From assembly GCF_000152845.1 (NCBI RefSeq), contig NZ_CH902584.1, positions 2,799,073 to 2,863,072 on the forward strand: 64,000 nt of DNA, in the 5' to 3' direction. The notes beneath the pieces are model-generated. The model was not told the origin of the DNA. It did not search any database and saw nothing but the letters and a program-made list of their open reading frames with translations. This DNA is from Roseovarius sp. 217. GTDB taxonomy: Bacteria; Pseudomonadota; Alphaproteobacteria; Rhodobacterales; Rhodobacteraceae. Shown here in pieces: positions 52,066 through 59,801 of the stretch. The position numbers and the translations under genes are program-made. The stretch's first letter is position 1, and each line of letters opens with the position of its first letter.

Positions 52066-53283
52066 ATGCCCACCGAACGCCTGACATTCGCTGGCCATGG
52101 CGGCCATGATCTAGTGGCGCGGCTCGATCTGCCGGAGGGGCCGCATCTGGCGACGGCGCTCTTTGCGCATTGTTTCACCTGTTCCAAGGATATTCCCGCC
52201 GCGCGGCGGATCGCGGCGCGGCTGGCGGGGGCGGGGATCGCGGTGCTGCGGTTCGATTTCACCGGGCTCGGGCATTCGGGGGGCGAGTTCGAGAACACCT
52301 CGTTCAGGTCGAATGTCGAGGATCTGGAGCGCGCGGCGGCGGCGCTCGCGGCACGCGGCATGGCGCCGGGGGTGCTGATCGGGCATAGTCTGGGCGGGGC
52401 CGCCGTCCTAGCGGCGGCTGGGAAGATCAGGAGTGCGCGGGCGGTGGTGACCATCGGCGCGCCGTTTGACCCCGGACATGTGACGCAAAATTTCGGCGCA
52501 GCGCTGGAGCGGATCGAGGCGGAGGGCGTGGCCGACGTCCGGCTTGGGGGTCGGGATATCCGGATCGGGCGCGGTTTTGTCGAGGATGTGCGGGCCGAGG
52601 TGCTTGGCCCCAAGATCGCGGCGTTGCACAAGGCGCTATTGGTACTGCATGCGCCGCGCGACGAGACCGTTGGGATCGAGAATGCCGCCGAGATATTCAA
52701 GGCGGCGAAACATCCCAAGAGTTTCGTCACGTTGGATGAGGCGGATCATCTGATCACCCGTGCAGAGGATGCCGACTATGCAGCGGGGGTCATTGCCGCC
52801 TGGGCCTTGCGGTATCTGGATATGCGCGTGCCCGCGCCGCCGCCCGGCGCACCGGAAGGCGTGGTGCGGGTCAGCGAGGCAGAGAGCGACGGGTTTTTGC
52901 AGGACATCAATTCCGGCCCGACGCATCATGCCTATGCCGATGAGCCGATTGCCTATGGGGGCACGGATCGCGGCATGTCGCCGTATGGGTTTCTGGCGGC
53001 GGGGTTGGGGGCCTGCACCTCGATGACGATCCGGATGTATGCGCGGCGCAAAGGCTGGATTCTGGATCATGTGAGTGTCGATGTGTGTCACGACAAGGTG
53101 CATGCGCAGGATGCCGATGCCCGTGCCGATGCCAAGGTGGACAAGTTCACGCGGGTCATTCGGCTGGAGGGGGATCTCAGCGAGGATCAGCGTGCGAAAT
53201 TGCTGGAGATCGCGGATAGATGCCCGGTGCATCGGACGCTGGAGCGGTCGTCGCAGGTGGAAACGCGGCTGGAGGACGCGTAA
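52066..53283 (+). CDS. Bifunctional alpha/beta hydrolase - OsmC family protein
   Basis: This 405-residue protein is a fusion. The N-terminal 255 residues form an alpha/beta hydrolase with the nucleophile S108 in IGHSLGG and the late histidine in DEADHLI. The C-terminal 150 residues form an OsmC-type peroxidase-like domain with two cysteines, in LGACTSMTIRMYARR and DRCPVHRTL, which is the arrangement used for organic hydroperoxide reduction. AAAGGAGG sets the start at 52066. The fusion is known in other proteobacteria, but its physiological substrate is not established. The adjacent singlet-oxygen locus suggests a role in lipid peroxide metabolism. Confidence 0.92.
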   Translation: MPTERLTFAGHGGHDLVARLDLPEGPHLATALFAHCFTCSKDIPAARRIAARLAGAGIAVLRFDFTGLGHSGGEFENTSFRSNVEDLERAAAALAARGMAPGVLIGHSLGGAAVLAAAGKIRSARAVVTIGAPFDPGHVTQNFGAALERIEAEGVADVRLGGRDIRIGRGFVEDVRAEVLGPKIAALHKALLVLHAPRDETVGIENAAEIFKAAKHPKSFVTLDEADHLITRAEDADYAAGVIAAWALRYLDMRVPAPPPGAPEGVVRVSEAESDGFLQDINSGPTHHAYADEPIAYGGTDRGMSPYGFLAAGLGACTSMTIRMYARRKGWILDHVSVDVCHDKVHAQDADARADAKVDKFTRVIRLEGDLSEDQRAKLLEIADRCPVHRTLERSSQVETRLEDA

Positions 53284-53356: not shown

Positions 53357-54013
53357 TCAAATCCGCAGGAACGGTTGTGCGAGGCGGGGAATGAGCGCAC
53401 GAAAGCGCAAGGGCGCGTCGGTTGCGGCAAGACAGATACAATCGGCACCGATATCCGCGACGGGCGTGTGATCGAGATCCTCATTGGCAATCTCGATGTC
53501 GCCGGGGCCGAAATAATCCACCGAGTCGGAAAACGCCCCTTGCAGCACCAGCGTGAGTTCGGTGCCGCGATGGCCGTGGTCAGGCACAGCCGCGCCAGCG
53601 GGAATAAAGAGCAGACGTGCCGTGGCAGCGCGAGAGGTGGGCAGGATCGCCTGTTTCACACCCATGCCGACGGGCCGCCAGCGCACGGCGTCGAGATCGC
53701 CGCCGATGTAGTCGCGCAGCGGTGCCGGAAAGAGGCCGGGCGCGGGGCGCACGGGCGATGTCACCGTCTGCGGCGGGGCCCTGCGTATCCGCGCCATGGT
53801 TGCGGCGAGACTGTCCTGAGCCAAGGCCGCCGTTTCGGAGGTCTCGATCAGCGCGCCACCGAGACTGTCAAAACTGCCGAGCCGTGCGCGGCACTCGTCA
53901 CACATGGAGATATGCGTGGCGACCGTCAGGTTGAACGCCTCTGGCAGGCTGCCGGCAGAATAGGCCATCAAAAGGGCGTCGCTGAGGTGGTGGGTGATCT
54001 GTTTTCTGGTCAT
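53357..54013 (-). CDS. chrR: Zinc-binding anti-sigma factor ChrR
   Basis: This 218-residue protein binds and inactivates RpoE until singlet oxygen appears. It has the N-terminal zinc anti-sigma domain with H34-x3-C38-x2-C41 (ATHISMCDEC) and an earlier histidine near the start, and a C-terminal cupin domain with the metal-binding HGHRGTE and later histidines. The start at 54013 (MTRKQITHHLSDALL) matches the R. sphaeroides ChrR start better than a GTG three codons upstream. It follows rpoE at 10 bases and is co-transcribed with it. Confidence 0.94.
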   Translation of the reverse strand: MTRKQITHHLSDALLMAYSAGSLPEAFNLTVATHISMCDECRARLGSFDSLGGALIETSETAALAQDSLAATMARIRRAPPQTVTSPVRPAPGLFPAPLRDYIGGDLDAVRWRPVGMGVKQAILPTSRAATARLLFIPAGAAVPDHGHRGTELTLVLQGAFSDSVDYFGPGDIEIANEDLDHTPVADIGADCICLAATDAPLRFRALIPRLAQPFLRI

Positions 54014-54023
54014 GGTATACACT

Positions 54024-54599
54024 TTACTTCATTGTGTGGCGCAAGCGGTCGAGCGCCAGTCTGATGCGGGATTTGATCGTGCCGAGAGGCAGGCCGGTTT
54101 GTGCTGCAATCTCGGAATGGCTGAGATCGCTGAAATAAGCCTTTTCGATCAACTCGCGTTGTTTCTGGGGAAGCGCTGCAATCGCCTCGCTCAATTGGTC
54201 GCTTTCTTGTTGCAGGGCGAGCGTATCGGCCTGATCTGGTTCCGGGTCCTGTCCCCAAGGCAGATCCTCGGGTTCGGGGCGTTTTTGTTTGCGCAGCGCG
54301 TCGATTTTGCGGTTGCGCGCGATGGTAAAGATCCATGTCGCCGCAGAGGCGCGGGATGGATCAAAGAGATGTGCCTTTTGCCAGAGCGTAGCCATCACCT
54401 CTTGGGTGCATTCTTCGGCCAGCGTGGCATCGGCGCCCGAGCGCATCAGGAACGCCTTGACCCTTGGGGCGAAATGCCCAAAGAGCCGGGCAAAGGCGGC
54501 CTCGTCCTGCGTCTCGCGGATGGCCGCGATGCAAGCCACCCAATCCGTGTTTTCCCGCTCACGTATCGTTGTCACCTTGGCCGGTCCTGCCCGTTTCAT
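54024..54599 (-). CDS. rpoE: ECF sigma factor RpoE (ECF11, singlet-oxygen response)
   Basis: This 191-residue sigma factor directs RNA polymerase to genes of the singlet-oxygen response. Region 2 spans about residues 30-100 (FARLFGHFAPRVKAFLMRSG, ATWIFTIARNRKIDAL) and region 4 about 130-190 (LPQKQRELIEKAYFSDLSHS, then TGLPLGTIKSRIRLAL). A much longer frame upstream on this strand is only antisense to the divergent operon and is not part of the gene; the start MKRAGPAKVTTI at 54599 fits the family. An ECF11-type promoter lies upstream, consistent with autoregulation. Confidence 0.95.
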   Translation of the reverse strand: MKRAGPAKVTTIRERENTDWVACIAAIRETQDEAAFARLFGHFAPRVKAFLMRSGADATLAEECTQEVMATLWQKAHLFDPSRASAATWIFTIARNRKIDALRKQKRPEPEDLPWGQDPEPDQADTLALQQESDQLSEAIAALPQKQRELIEKAYFSDLSHSEIAAQTGLPLGTIKSRIRLALDRLRHTMK

Positions 54600-54686
54600 T
54601 GTTGTCGCGGACCTCTTAACACGGGTGACAAGCACCGGCGAGGGGTCAGGGTCACGCAGGAGGATGGCTTCGTTTAACATGACAGA

Positions 54687-54714
54687 TTTACGATGAAAAC
54701 GCGGGGTTGGATCA
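54687..54714 (-). promoter_or_regulatory. ECF11/RpoE-type promoter of rpoE-chrR
   Basis: On the minus strand TGATCC (54714-54709) and CGTAAA (54692-54687) are separated by 16 bases, a close match to the known RpoE promoter pattern of R. sphaeroides (TGATCC then a CGTA-type -10). It lies about 90 bases before the rpoE start. This indicates that RpoE controls its own gene. Confidence 0.8.
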
Positions 54715-54757
54715 CATCTCGTCATAAATAAACCGCGATTTGTTTCCAGACTGATTG

Positions 54758-54785
54758 TAATCCGTTCGCGGTGTCGGTGCGTATT
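54758..54785 (+). promoter_or_regulatory. ECF11/RpoE-type promoter of the divergent operon
   Basis: TAATCC (54758-54763) and CGTATT (54780-54785) are also separated by exactly 16 bases, the same spacing as in the rpoE promoter, 37 bases before the flavoprotein start. One base differs from the TGATCC consensus. It probably makes the five downstream genes RpoE-dependent, as their counterparts are in R. sphaeroides. Confidence 0.7.
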
Positions 54786-54821
54786 GCAAGCACGAGCACG
54801 AATTAGCAGGTTGAACGCTTC

Positions 54822-56120
54822 ATGCCATTTGAGACAGGCGCCGCGGTGCGCAAGAAAATTGCCGTGATCGGCGCAGGTATCACGGGCATGGGGGCCGCAG
54901 ACCGTCTTGCGGATGGGCATCATGTGGTGGTCTTCGAGGCCGAGCCGCGATTGGGTGGGCATGCGCGCACCATCATGGCGGGCAAGCGCGGGGATCAGCC
55001 GGTCGATACCGGCTTTATCGTGTTCAACTATGCGACCTATCCCAACCTCAACGCGCTCTTTGAGCGGCTGGATGTGCCGGTTGCGCCAAGTACCATGAGT
55101 TTTGGGGCGTCGTTCCGCGGCGGGGCCTTGGAATATGGTTTGCAAGGGGCGGGGGCGTTCTTTGCCCAGCGACGCAATGTGATGAACCCGGCGCATTGGA
55201 TGATGTTGCGCGATATTTTCCGGTTCAATGAGGGGGCGTTGGAGGCTTGCAAGGAGCCGGGGCTGACCATGGCGGGGCTTATCACCAAGATGCAGTTGGG
55301 CTGCTCTTTCCGCGACTATTACCTCACGCCGTTTTCGGGGGCGATCTGGTCGATGCCGGTGGAGCGGGTGCTGGAGTTTCCGGCGCAGGCGCTGGTGACG
55401 TTTTTCAAGCAGCATGGATTGCTGGGCTATAGCGAGCAGCATCAGTGGTATACGGTTGTGGGCGGGTCGGTCGCCTATGTCAGCCTGCTGGAGCGGTCCT
55501 TGCGCTCGAAGGGGGCCGAAATCCGGTTGGGTGCGCCAATCGCAGGTATCCGGCGCCTCGCAGAGGGTGTGGAGGTGCGGGCCGAGGGCGGCGACTGGGA
55601 GCAGTTTGACGAGGTGGTAATTGCGGCGCATAGCGACGACGCGCTGCGATTGCTCGCTGATGCGGATGAGAGCGAGCGCGGCAGCGTGGGGGCGATTGCC
55701 TATCAGCCCAACGACATCATCCTGCATGCGGACACCAGTGTGATGCCGCGGCGTCGGGCGGTCTGGTCGTCGTGGAATTACACCGAGGCAAGGGTCAAGC
55801 GGGCGGGGCAGATTGATTTGACCTATTGGATGAACAGCCTGCAACCGATCCCCGAGGACGATCCGCATTTCGTCACGCTCAACACCACGCGGCCCATTCG
55901 GGACGAGTTGATCTATGATCAGGTGACGCTGCGCCATCCGGTCTATGATCTGGGGGCGGTGGCGGCACAAGCCCGCGTGCGGGCGATGAACGGGCGGCGC
56001 AACACATGGTTTTGCGGGGCATGGATGCGGAATGGGTTTCACGAGGACGGGTTGGCAAGTGGCCTTGAGGTGGCCGAAGCGATTTATGCGCGCGCCGCCT
56101 CGGCTGTGGCGGCGGAATGA
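54822..56120 (+). CDS. FAD-dependent oxidoreductase (amine-oxidase fold) of the RpoE operon
   Basis: This 432-residue protein has an N-terminal Rossmann motif GAGITGMGAADRLADG followed by the glutamate of VVVFEAE and RLGGHA, as in FAD-dependent amine oxidase and desaturase-like proteins. Its counterpart in R. sphaeroides is the first gene of the RpoE-dependent RSP_1091-1087 operon, and I recall that this protein takes part in furan fatty acid formation (UfaD). That link should be confirmed. The stop codon overlaps the next start by 4 bases. Confidence 0.88.
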   Translation: MPFETGAAVRKKIAVIGAGITGMGAADRLADGHHVVVFEAEPRLGGHARTIMAGKRGDQPVDTGFIVFNYATYPNLNALFERLDVPVAPSTMSFGASFRGGALEYGLQGAGAFFAQRRNVMNPAHWMMLRDIFRFNEGALEACKEPGLTMAGLITKMQLGCSFRDYYLTPFSGAIWSMPVERVLEFPAQALVTFFKQHGLLGYSEQHQWYTVVGGSVAYVSLLERSLRSKGAEIRLGAPIAGIRRLAEGVEVRAEGGDWEQFDEVVIAAHSDDALRLLADADESERGSVGAIAYQPNDIILHADTSVMPRRRAVWSSWNYTEARVKRAGQIDLTYWMNSLQPIPEDDPHFVTLNTTRPIRDELIYDQVTLRHPVYDLGAVAAQARVRAMNGRRNTWFCGAWMRNGFHEDGLASGLEVAEAIYARAASAVAAE

Positions 56121-56872
56121 GGCGGATCGACCATATCGCGGGTCATACCTGGCATGGGCGCAAGGGCGGGATCGAGAATGCCTTTCGCTATGGGATCGAC
56201 TATGTGCTGCTGGATGCCGAGACCGAGGCTGCGGCACCGCGTCTGTTCGGGCGCAATCGGCGGGGGGTGGCCTCGGTCTGGGATGCAGATCACGGTGGGG
56301 TTCCGGGGCAGGGGCGTGGCGCGGCGTGGGTGCGGGAGGTGTTGGCCGAGCGGCAGATCCCACCGCCTGCGCGGATCGAGCTGCTGGGACAGCCGCGTAT
56401 TCTGGGACATGTGTTCAACCCGGTGAGTTTCTGGATTTGTCGCGATGCCGCCGGTCAGGTGCCGGTGATCATCGCCGAGGTCAGCAATACCTATGGGGAT
56501 CGCCATTCCTATCTGTGTCACCGCGATGACATGGGGCCGATCACGGCGCAGGACCGGTTGCAGGCAAAAAAGGTCTTTCATGTCTCGCCGTTCCTGCGGA
56601 TCGAGGGCGGGTATGAATTCCGGTTTGATCTGCGCGAGGATCGCATCGGCATCTGGATTGATTTTACCGGCGCCCATGGCGGGGTGATCGCCACGCTGGT
56701 GGGTCAGCGTCGGAGGTTGACCAATTGGGGGCTTCTGCGCGCCATGCTGCGGCGGCCATTTGGGTCGCGGCGGGTGCTGGGCCTGATCCATTGGCAGGCG
56801 TTCAAGCTGTGGTGGAAGGGTGCGTCGTTTCAGAGCCGCCCGGTGCCGCCCGCCGATGAGGTGAGCCGGTGA
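56117..56872 (+). CDS. DUF1365 family protein of the RpoE operon
   Basis: This 251-residue protein matches DUF1365: HTWHGRKGGIENAFRYGIDYV at the N-terminus, LLGQPRILGHVFNPVSFWI and VIIAEVSNTYGDRHSYL. Such genes regularly follow the flavoprotein in RpoE-type operons. In R. sphaeroides the counterpart has been connected with the singlet-oxygen response, possibly with ChrR turnover, which I recall rather than can show. It overlaps genes on both sides by 4 bases. Confidence 0.88.
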   Translation: MRRIDHIAGHTWHGRKGGIENAFRYGIDYVLLDAETEAAAPRLFGRNRRGVASVWDADHGGVPGQGRGAAWVREVLAERQIPPPARIELLGQPRILGHVFNPVSFWICRDAAGQVPVIIAEVSNTYGDRHSYLCHRDDMGPITAQDRLQAKKVFHVSPFLRIEGGYEFRFDLREDRIGIWIDFTGAHGGVIATLVGQRRRLTNWGLLRAMLRRPFGSRRVLGLIHWQAFKLWWKGASFQSRPVPPADEVSR

Positions 56873-58110
56873 GTGCGGTTTTGGCCGGGACCGTGGCGCA
56901 GGCTGCGCCGCGTCTGCCGGGCTATGCGCTCTTTGGGGCAATGCTCGCGGCGGCGGGGTTGCCGCTCTATATTCACGCGCCGAAGTTCTATGTGGACGAA
57001 TATGGCGTGTCACTGGGCGCGCTGGGGGCGGTGCTCTTTGCGCTGCGGCTGATTGATGTGGTGCAAGACCCGGCACTCGGGCGGTTGTCGGAGCGGTTGC
57101 GCGCGCATCGTGCGATGAGCGTCTGGGTCGCGGTTGCGGTGATGGCGGCGGCGATGCTGGGGCTGTTCGCGGTGGTGCCGCCTGTTGCCCCGCTCTGGTG
57201 GTTTGCGGCGATGCTGGTGCTGGTGTTTTCGGCCTTCAGCTATCTCACCATCTGTTTTTACGCGCAGGGCGTGGCCACGGCGGCGCGGCTGCCGGGACAG
57301 GGGCATTTGCGGCTGGCGCGGTGGCGGGAAACCGGCGCGCTCTTGGGGATTTGTGCGGCGGCGGTGGCGCCGGTGGTTTTGGGTGGCTTTGGCGGTTTTG
57401 CCCTTGGCTTTGCGATTTTGTCGGGACTGGCGGGGTTGGCCATGGTTGGACAATGGCAGGATTGCGGAGGCGTGCCGGGTACAGGCTTTGGCCCGGTGCT
57501 GCGCGATGCCGTGGCGCGGCGGTTGCTGATGGTGGCGATGGTCAATGCAGCCCCCGTGGCGGTGAGTTCGACGCTGTTCTTGTTCTTTGTCGAGAGCCGG
57601 TTGCAAGCGCCGGGGTGGGAAGGGCCGTTTCTCTTGCTGTTTTTCCTGGCGGCGGCGGCGGCGGCCCCGGTCTGGGGCGCCTTGGCTGAGCGGTTTGGGG
57701 CCAAGCGGATGCTCTTGGGAGGCATGGTCCTGTCGATTGCCGCCTTTGCCGGGGCGGTAACGCTCGGGGCGGGTGATCTCTGGGCCTTTGGCGTGATCTG
57801 CGTGGCCTCCGGGGCGGCGATGGGGGCGGATATGACGCTTTTACCCGCTCTTTTTGCGCGGCGAATGGCGCAGGTTTCGCCGGGGGCGGCGGAGGGGTTT
57901 GGTCTCTGGTCGTTTGTGTCGAAATTCACGCTGGCGCTGGCGGCTGTGGCGCTCTTGCCGCTGCTGGAAGCGGGCGGGTTCGAGGCGGGGCAGGCCAATC
58001 CGGGTGAGGCGCTGATGCTGCTTAGCCTGCTCTATGGAGCGGTGCCCTGTGTGTTGAAACTTTTGGCCATTGCGCTCTTGGCCCGAACACCGATTGAGGA
58101 AGGGAGCTGA
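56869..58110 (+). CDS. MFS-type transporter of the RpoE operon
   Basis: This 413-residue integral membrane protein has about twelve hydrophobic helices and starts at a GTG that overlaps the previous stop codon (GTGA). Family text includes YALFGAMLAAAGLPLYIHAP and ALRLIDVVQDPALGRLSERL, which resembles the sodium-sugar/MFS_2 group of symporters. The substrate is unknown. It is the third of five genes and is conserved in position in related genomes. Confidence 0.87.
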   Translation: MSAVLAGTVAQAAPRLPGYALFGAMLAAAGLPLYIHAPKFYVDEYGVSLGALGAVLFALRLIDVVQDPALGRLSERLRAHRAMSVWVAVAVMAAAMLGLFAVVPPVAPLWWFAAMLVLVFSAFSYLTICFYAQGVATAARLPGQGHLRLARWRETGALLGICAAAVAPVVLGGFGGFALGFAILSGLAGLAMVGQWQDCGGVPGTGFGPVLRDAVARRLLMVAMVNAAPVAVSSTLFLFFVESRLQAPGWEGPFLLLFFLAAAAAAPVWGALAERFGAKRMLLGGMVLSIAAFAGAVTLGAGDLWAFGVICVASGAAMGADMTLLPALFARRMAQVSPGAAEGFGLWSFVSKFTLALAAVALLPLLEAGGFEAGQANPGEALMLLSLLYGAVPCVLKLLAIALLARTPIEEGS

Positions 58111-58114
58111 TCCG

Positions 58115-58675
58115 ATGGAGGTTTTGGGATGGATAGGGCTGGGGGCGGCGGTGATGCTGGCGCTGGTGCTGCTCAAGGAGCGGCTCGCGGGGTTCGGCGC
58201 GCAGGTTCCGGAGGATTACGCGGGGCAGGGGCCGCAGTTTGATCTGCGCGAGCATCTGCGCGGTGCGATCAAATGCGAGGGCGTGATCTATGGTCCGCTC
58301 GGGCGGGTCGCGTCGCGGTTCACGGGGGATTTCGAGGCAAGCTGGCAGGGCAATCGCGGTGTGATGCGCGAGCATTTCGATTATGACAGCGGTAATTCTC
58401 AGGACCGTGAGTGGCGTCTGGAGCTTGGTAATGACGGAAGCATCCTGGCAGAGGCCGACGATTTGGTCGGCACCGGTGCCGGGCGGCAACTGGGGGCGGC
58501 GGCGCGGCTCTGTTACCGCATCCGCCTGCCCAAGGAGGCGGGCGGTCATGTGCTGAGCGTGACCGACTGGATGTACTTGGCCCCCAATGGTGTGGTGGTC
58601 AATCGCAGTCAGTTCCGCAAGTTCGGGATCAAGGTGGCGGAACTGGTGGCGGTGATGCGCCGGGTGGAGGCATGA
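58115..58675 (+). CDS. DUF3833 family protein of the RpoE operon
   Basis: This 186-residue protein matches DUF3833, with one N-terminal hydrophobic segment (EVLGWIGLGAAVMLALVLL) that probably anchors it or acts as a signal, followed by DLREHLRGAIKCEGVIYGPL and SRFTGDFEASWQGNRGVMRE. Its biochemical function is unknown. AAGGGAG lies before the ATG at 58115, five bases after the MFS stop codon. It overlaps the SDR gene by 4 bases. Confidence 0.85.
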   Translation: MEVLGWIGLGAAVMLALVLLKERLAGFGAQVPEDYAGQGPQFDLREHLRGAIKCEGVIYGPLGRVASRFTGDFEASWQGNRGVMREHFDYDSGNSQDREWRLELGNDGSILAEADDLVGTGAGRQLGAAARLCYRIRLPKEAGGHVLSVTDWMYLAPNGVVVNRSQFRKFGIKVAELVAVMRRVEA

Positions 58676-59406
58676 TGGACTGGCGCGGCAAACGCTATTG
58701 GCTGGTGGGGGCCAGCGAGGGTCTGGGGGCCGCGCTGGCGCAGAAGATCAGCGCGGCGGGGGCCGAGGTGATCGTGTCGGCGCGGAATGCCGAGCGGCTT
58801 GATGAGGTTGTGGCGGGCCTGCCGGGGCGGGCCAGTGCGGTGCCGGTCGATGTGCGCGACGATGCCAGCGTGGCCGAAGCGGCGCGCGCGGTGGGACAAA
58901 TTGACGGGTTGGTGTGGCTGGCGGGTGTCTATTGGCCGATGCCCGCGACCGAGTGGAAGTCCGAGGACGCGGTCGCCATGGCGGATGTGAATTTCACCGG
59001 CGCGGTGCGGGTCATTGGCGCGGTCTTGCCCGATATGGTGGCGCGGGACGCGGGACATGTGGTGTTGACCGGATCGCTCTCTGGCTTTCGTGGATTGCCG
59101 GGGGCGATTGGCTATGCGGCGTCCAAGGCGGCGACCATGTCCTTGGCCGAATCGATGCGGGCCGATCTGTGGCGCAGCGGCGTGCGGGTGCAACTGGCCA
59201 ATCCCGGTTTCATCAAGACACGGCTGACGGACAAGAACCAGTTTCGCATGCCCTTTATCATGACGCCCGAGGCCGCGGCGCAAGAGATGTTCGAATTGAT
59301 GTGCGACGCGGCGGCCTTTCAGCGGCATTTCCCGCGACTTTTCAGCTATGTCTTTCGTTTGTCACGGTTTTTACCGGATTGGGCCTATTACCGGCTGTTT
59401 GCGTGA
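58672..59406 (+). CDS. Short-chain dehydrogenase/reductase of the RpoE operon
   Basis: This 244-residue SDR has the cofactor motif GASEGLGAALAQ near residue 13, the catalytic YAASK at about residues 145-149 with an upstream serine in TGSLSG, and a C-terminal tail without extra domains. It is the last gene of the five-gene operon. The substrate is unknown; the operon context suggests a lipid-derived compound. Confidence 0.88.
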   Translation: MMDWRGKRYWLVGASEGLGAALAQKISAAGAEVIVSARNAERLDEVVAGLPGRASAVPVDVRDDASVAEAARAVGQIDGLVWLAGVYWPMPATEWKSEDAVAMADVNFTGAVRVIGAVLPDMVARDAGHVVLTGSLSGFRGLPGAIGYAASKAATMSLAESMRADLWRSGVRVQLANPGFIKTRLTDKNQFRMPFIMTPEAAAQEMFELMCDAAAFQRHFPRLFSYVFRLSRFLPDWAYYRLFA

Positions 59407-59474: not shown

Positions 59475-59801
59475 ATGCTGGACATCACGGTACATAAAAT
59501 CGCGCAGGTGGTTATTATGGCGCGCGAGCTTGGTCGGGCGGAGGGCGAATTGCGCGCCTTCATCGAGCGGTTGAGTGAGGATGAACAGGCCAGTCTGGTC
59601 GCCGTGATGTGGATCGGCCGGGGCAGTTTCGAGGTTGAGGAACTGGAAGAGGCGAAACGGACGGCAGAGGAAGAGGCAACGACGCCCTGTGCGGATTACC
59701 TCCTGGGCACGCCGCATCTGTCGGATCATCTGGAAAACGGTCTGGAGGCGTTGGGTCTGTCGGCGTCCGATGATGAGGATGAATTGATCCGGGGCGGCTG
59801 A
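59475..59801 (+). CDS. DUF3775 family protein
   Basis: This 108-residue acidic protein matches DUF3775: ITVHKIAQVVIMARELGRAE, LSEDEQASLVAVMWIGRGSF and the acidic tail ending DDEDELIRGG. It stands 69 bases after the RpoE operon, with GGAGGGCGG before the start. Its function is unknown. It is a common conserved gene of alphaproteobacteria. Confidence 0.85.
   Translation: MLDITVHKIAQVVIMARELGRAEGELRAFIERLSEDEQASLVAVMWIGRGSFEVEELEEAKRTAEEEATTPCADYLLGTPHLSDHLENGLEALGLSASDDEDELIRGG

Follow-up and report, generated by a model that had tools for sequence, protein, structure and literature searches.

A 64,000-nucleotide stretch of DNA from a Roseovarius-like bacterium (the whole stretch is called the window below) carries, at positions 53357-59406, an rpoE-chrR operon of the extracytoplasmic function (ECF) sigma factor type ECF11, which diverges from a ufaD-ufaO-MFS-DUF3833-SDR operon. 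The promoter-like sites of the two operons have spacers of the same length, but their −35 boxes are unequal: the rpoE box is perfect and the ufaD box is off consensus, an asymmetry that recurs among relatives. This asymmetry is the new part of the work. The evidence for it is statistical and evolutionary, and from it we infer both an effect on promoter strength and a purpose. The core of the locus was already known, because it is the ortholog of the studied Rhodobacter sphaeroides rpoE-chrR/RSP1091-1087 locus, and the locus as a whole is a known kind of system in a new organism. Our literature search did not find a per-target −35 difference, although the regulon comparison of Dufour 2008, which PMC6852236 cites, may contain part of it.

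The ufaD −35 box departs from consensus in most relatives

Both sides of the rpoE/ufaD intergenic region carry an ECF11-type site with a 16-base spacer, as found by a motif scan. On the minus strand (54714-54687) the site before rpoE is TGATCC-N16-CGTAAA, which reads as a perfect autoregulatory site of the form TGATCC-N16-CGTA; on the plus strand (54758-54785) the site before ufaD is TAATCC-N16-CGTATT. A site is called perfect here when it has both TGATCC and CGTA. The first-pass annotation had described divergent ECF11-type promoters with identical 16-base spacers, and the sequence agrees with this. Its description of “twin promoters of equal spacing” holds for the spacers, both N16, and fails for the −35 boxes. 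Nor is the equal spacing a finding, as available portions of the respective papers place the same spacing in the R. sphaeroides Pos19 upstream site (TGATCC-N15-GCGTA; PMC5036791) and the same motif and spacing in Shewanella RpoE2 targets, two of which have mapped start sites (PMC4336711). Equal spacing is uninformative by itself because a single sigma factor demands it.

We fetched 100 relatives, giving 101 loci with the window, and scored 78 (window included) as back-to-back rpoE/ufaD loci. In the remaining 23, ufaD and ufaO point away from one another (11), ufaD lies elsewhere (5), the fetched stretch lacks rpoE (5, one of them an incomplete sequence, whose missing genes carry no meaning) or the rpoE-ufaD gap is longer (2). 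A second set of 80 named genomes, of which 75 were scored and 5 dropped, shares some genomes with the first. The scan keeps the best site, and ties may pick the wrong one (as in L065); the L159 stretch is incomplete and shows neither site.

Perfect sites precede rpoE in 75 of the 78 loci and ufaD in 24 of the 78; in the named, partly overlapping set the numbers are 72/75 and 28/75, respectively. When repeats were removed, 142 distinct pairs remained, with the rpoE site nearer to consensus in 89, the ufaD site in 4 and a tie in 49, kinship not being taken into account. On a tree of 76 loci, the ufaD site switched between the perfect and imperfect states at least 8 times and the rpoE site at least 2 times, and the ufaD hexamer changed at least 21 times. 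In the window's clade, all 21 back-to-back ufaD sites are imperfect.

A third promoter served as a paired control. The phrA promoter was rejected for this purpose (only 8/30 perfect within 300 bases, and 15/30 without a site at two or fewer mismatches), and rpoHII was used in its place. An rpoHII site was present in all 30 genomes examined (our own included, out of 98 with a match) and perfect in 24. Where all three promoters could be scored (28 genomes), perfect sites numbered 28 for rpoE, 24 for rpoHII and 6 for ufaD; a perfect rpoHII site together with an imperfect ufaD site occurred in 18 genomes and the reverse in none (p = 8e-6, uncorrected for kinship). As far as the sequences go, the ufaD asymmetry is a strong, though not universal, trend.

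Two candidate causes of the perfect or imperfect ufaD state were rejected. With gaps outside −5 to 150 bases excluded, the median distance between the two −35 boxes was 22 bases for perfect and 23 for imperfect ufaD sites (70 loci, p = 0.51), and 24 for both in the second comparison (66 loci, p = 0.67). Loci with an in-operon ufaM have perfect ufaD sites in 10/14 cases and those without it in 14/62; the tree yields just 2 independent pairs, too few to bear on a cause.

Relocated ufaD genes and other gene orders

The window's gene order, with or without a downstream DUF3775 gene, is the commonest among the 101 loci (44). Variants include an in-operon ufaM, the lack of an MFS or DUF3833 match, and mutually divergent ufaD and ufaO genes. 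In one genus, g22 (L121, L123, L124, L125 and L127), ufaO stays beside rpoE while ufaD has moved out of the operon, lying 140-155 kb away in four genomes and on a different contig in the fifth. The relocated ufaD genes (L352-L356) have a perfect RpoE-like site in 5/5 cases. These five genomes nest within a supported 26-row clade that includes the window, and this relocation event supports, from sequence comparison, the idea that the state of the ufaD site depends on its position. In 11 other loci (L143, L144, L149-L153 and L155-L158), ufaD and ufaO are mutually divergent and each has a perfect site, rpoE being located elsewhere; their clade nests among loci whose ufaD sites are mostly perfect.

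With respect to ufaM, two kinds of UfaM-like methyltransferase can be recognized, one found mostly next to phrA and sharing 59-75% identity with that of the host, the other encoded in the operon (39-47%). Several genomes have both kinds; examples of either are L129, L131-L142 and L145-L147.

A probably weaker ufaD promoter as a proposed setting of loop gain

Parts of several papers describe the R. sphaeroides system on which our explanation draws. The divergent RSP_1091-1087 operon is named there, and both operons carry an RpoE promoter (PMC3818230). UfaM (RSP2144), UfaD (RSP1091) and UfaO (RSP1090) produce a methylated furan fatty acid (PMC7380195), while UfaD and UfaO are required for the singlet-oxygen-driven turnover of ChrR, which makes a positive loop (PMC3818230, PMC6852236). 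Orthology with R. sphaeroides and the sites lead us to expect both the loop and the furan pathway in the host. ChrR would keep RpoE inactive until singlet oxygen causes its breakdown; freed RpoE would then transcribe its own operon and the ufaD-ufaO operon and, elsewhere, phrA-ufaM and rpoHII. UfaM, UfaD and UfaO would make furan fatty acids, and the need for UfaD and UfaO in ChrR turnover would close the positive loop. The rpoE promoter retains a perfect −35 box. At ufaD, this box departs from consensus across those members of the window's clade that were sampled, with the −10 box and spacing mostly retained. In our reading, ufaD would have the weaker promoter, which would set the gain of the loop. 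This explanation as a whole, an R. sphaeroides-type locus with an RpoE positive loop and a weaker ufaD promoter setting its gain, is in our judgment very probably right. We are far more tentative about a narrower and rather doubtful proposal, namely that selection keeps the ufaD −35 box off consensus as a gain control needed only beside rpoE and that a membrane-anchored DUF3833 barrel carries the furan or oxidised acyl chain.

Several observations weigh against the gain-setting explanation. The 24 perfect ufaD sites among the 78 back-to-back loci do not follow the trend, and among five further two-gene loci ufaD is perfect in 3 (L344, L345 and L349) and rpoE in 4, with L349 having no detectable rpoE site. 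Perfect and imperfect ufaD sites show the same inter-promoter spacing. The ufaO gene that remains beside rpoE in g22 has a perfect site in 3/5 genomes, TAATCC in 1/5 and none found in 1/5, and the rpoE site is less regular in the 11 loci with divergent ufaD and ufaO (7 perfect sites, 2 with a single mismatch and 2 loci where none was found). Position dependence is backed by just one relocation event, and the premise that TAATCC is weaker than TGATCC is itself one that we infer from sequence.

The ufaD −35 box might instead be under relaxed constraint, for example if a second, RpoE-independent promoter supplied enough UfaD and UfaO, so that the box drifts without function. We consider this a real possibility, though it has somewhat less than an even chance. 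The letter counts exclude sites with a mismatched −10 box (15 at ufaD and 3 at rpoE), and the 127 ufaD sites left show thirteen different hexamers, as drift would allow, the commonest being TGATCC (51), TCATCC (28), TGATCT (14), TAATCC (13) and GCATCC (7). However, the inner ATC is retained in 125 of these 127 exact-−10 sites (drawn from the 142 distinct pairs, with CGTA fixed by construction). Likewise, an exact −10 box with no more than two −35 mismatches is present at ufaD in 71/78 regions (and at rpoE in 77/78) versus about 3.3% of shuffles; among 3900 dinucleotide shuffles of the 78 intergenic regions, scored for their best plus-strand site that keeps CGTA intact, sites with 0, 1 and 2 mismatches in the −35 box arose in 0.03, 0.4 and 2.8%. 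The CGTA ends 27-72 bases ahead of the approximate ufaD start codon in 70/71 cases, and a scan that is poorly suited to alphaproteobacteria detected no sigma70-type promoter between the two genes.

Competition of the back-to-back promoters for shared upstream DNA, with a weaker ufaD box giving rpoE priority, is unlikely in our view. The median gap of 22-24 bases between the two −35 boxes would fit it, as would the perfect relocated ufaD sites in 5/5 genomes of a genus nested in a clade in which 21/21 back-to-back sites are imperfect. Yet gap length has no predictive value for the perfect or imperfect state, loci with an in-operon ufaM hold perfect sites with the boxes 4-5 bases apart, the relocation is the only informative one, and in 3/5 of its genomes the ufaO that stayed next to rpoE has a perfect site. 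That a different sigma factor is the main reader of the off-consensus ufaD site seems to us very improbable: this idea has no direct support, and CGTA with a 16-base spacer, both features of RpoE sites, is retained in most loci. Compared with these alternatives, a weaker, RpoE-read ufaD promoter within a positive loop is the reading that we prefer. The recurrent −35 asymmetry gives a cheap means of testing how an ECF sigma system sets the gain of its loop.

Relation to known systems

In the parts of the R. sphaeroides papers at hand, the divergent rpoE-chrR and five-gene operons resemble those of the window, with an RpoE site before each (PMC3818230, PMC7380195, PMC6852236), and, as in the window's genome, ufaM (RSP2144) lies outside the operon and rpoHII is under RpoE (PMC7380195, PMC6852236). 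The R. sphaeroides-like gene order claimed in the first-pass annotation is upheld by PMC3818230, as far as its excerpts go, and by L344, the relative that comes nearest to R. sphaeroides ChrR in a comparison of 390 genomes, where these seven genes stand in identical order. L344 and L345, the fetched loci closest to R. sphaeroides, differ from the window in having TGATCC on both sides, where the window's ufaD −35 box is TAATCC. Should R. sphaeroides also have two perfect boxes, the standard model organism would have hidden the asymmetry.

The Shewanella oneidensis rpoE2-chrR regulon, as excerpted from PMC4336711, shares the TGATCC-N16-CGTA sites and has photolyase, cfa and glutathione peroxidase targets; it differs in its neighbouring gene, which is not ufaD but the lon-domain gene SO_1987, listed with the site TGATCA. 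Rhodopseudomonas palustris RPA2569-2571 encode UfaM, UfaO and UfaD homologs that, by the portion of PMC7380195 concerned, suffice for furan fatty acid production in R. sphaeroides. By locus tags, the R. palustris ufaM adjoins ufaO, whereas ufaM follows phrA in the host genome.

A ChrR match at E 1e-30 or better is present in 311/390 genomes, and a UfaO match in 106/121 genomes of the window's order. Of the 80 named genomes that we fetched, those of Roseovarius come nearest; one of these, the metagenome-assembled genome L220, shows 84-92% identity across the seven proteins. The host genome has two Photo_RC matches, that is, photosynthetic reaction-centre genes, and because of these singlet oxygen is likely a genuine stress for the host. 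A well-studied light-stress switch is extended here to a Roseovarius-like bacterium with such genes, with two corrections to its description: DUF1365 is UfaO, and equal spacing does not mean equal strength.

RpoE-like sites elsewhere in the genome

In the 4.77-Mb genome, TGATCC-N16-CGTAW had 10 matches versus 1 for a reversed control, and the looser TRATCC-N16-CGTADW, which covers both window sites, had 7 versus 1. When flanking frames were read, 5 of the 10 TGATCC-N16-CGTAW matches preceded rpoE, phrA, a glutathione peroxidase gene, FolE2 and a 120-residue frame; 4 lie within frames, and 1 (L004) has no assignment. The rpoHII site is TGATCC-N16-CGTAGC. The phrA start lies 51 bases past the first base of its perfect site and is followed by a UfaM-type CMAS gene (L022), so that UfaM, UfaD and UfaO homologs are all present in the genome, the latter two types in the window and the UfaM type behind phrA. 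Judged by their sites, the glutathione peroxidase, the 120-residue frame and the GTP cyclohydrolase FolE2 (L003, L006 and L007) are candidate further RpoE targets; the 120-residue frame has no Pfam or NCBIfam match.

Genes of the locus

Open frames end exactly at the coordinates given in the first-pass annotation, and families were assigned by Pfam and NCBIfam. The chrR gene, encoding the zinc anti-sigma factor, occupies 53357..54022 on the minus strand, with a GTG start at 54022 or possibly an ATG at 54013. Its product matches TIGR02451 (209.6 bits; cut-off 124.5) and Cupin_7, and its best solved relative is PDB 2z2s (E 2.4e-78, 63% identity, alignment spanning residues 9-210). This alignment retains the presumed zinc ligands of the two ChrR domains, namely HH, H-x3-C-x2-C, H-x-H, E and H. 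The adjoining minus-strand gene, rpoE (54024..54599; ATG at 54599 by inspection), encodes an ECF11-type sigma factor with Sigma70_r2 and r4_2 domains (PDB 2q1z_A, E 8.3e-81), so that a ChrR-type anti-sigma gene adjoins its sigma factor gene as expected of ECF11 RpoE-ChrR pairs. We take 2z2s (ChrR) and 2q1z (RpoE) to be R. sphaeroides structures. The open frames, TIGR02451 and these two relatives substantiate the earlier claim of a complete RpoE-ChrR locus.

The five plus-strand genes are tightly packed, with stop-start overlaps (the ufaO start overlaps the ufaD stop) or a four-base gap. They are ufaD (54822..56120; PF01593, FAD amine-oxidase type), ufaO (56117..56872; DUF1365, PF07103, E 8.8e-68), an MFS_2 transporter gene (56869..58110; PF13347, E 3e-53), the DUF3833 gene (58115..58675; PF12915, E 1.9e-49) and, last in the operon, the SDR (short-chain dehydrogenase) gene (58672..59406; PF00106, E 7.3e-42). 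We take RSP1089, RSP1088 and RSP1087 to be the MFS, DUF3833 and SDR counterparts. Going by portions of PMC7380195, UfaD is the ortholog of an FAD-dependent acyl desaturase (RSP1091) and UfaO that of an O2-dependent furan-forming enzyme (RSP1090), required with UfaD for furan fatty acids, while single deletions of RSP1089, 1088 and 1087 retained furan fatty acid with an unchanged profile. Among the genes that had been called poorly defined, DUF1365 was thus already known as UfaO in that paper; DUF3833 and the SDR do remain undefined, as does the MFS transporter.

The DUF3833 structure model (mean pLDDT 91.8) shows a helix at the N-terminus and, after it, an antiparallel barrel of ten strands. 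Foldseek matched 16 chains, at E 2.3e-5 to 9.2e-4, and the fold matches include BFA1, nitrobindins, phycobiliprotein lyase, FABP-type proteins and designed barrels. VIA Z scores were 14.6 for nitrobindin 3wje_A (rmsd 2.7, 135 aligned), 15.4 for BFA1 and 15.3 for a designed transmembrane barrel; as BFA1 and the designed barrel match equally well, the match is to a barrel and not to any single family. The protein is predicted by the model to be a membrane-anchored calycin-like (nitrobindin/FABP-like) barrel. Haem is a less likely ligand because the invariant columns of 42 DUF3833 sequences contain no histidine. A literature search, judged by titles and abstract openings, found nothing on DUF3833 function. 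The UfaO model is confident, but its fold search gave no match at E 0.001 or better, and a fold claim was rejected as too weak (best VIA Z 7.1, rmsd 4.1, 132 aligned); a weak barrel-like resemblance to nitrobindin and to the OlmO/OssO spirocyclases was seen (Z about 7).

Two neighbouring genes flank the locus. A DUF3775 gene lies downstream of the SDR gene at 59475-59801 and is near the operon in many relatives. Convergent with chrR, at 52066-53283, is a gene for an alpha/beta-hydrolase fused to an OsmC domain; OsmC proteins often act on organic hydroperoxides.
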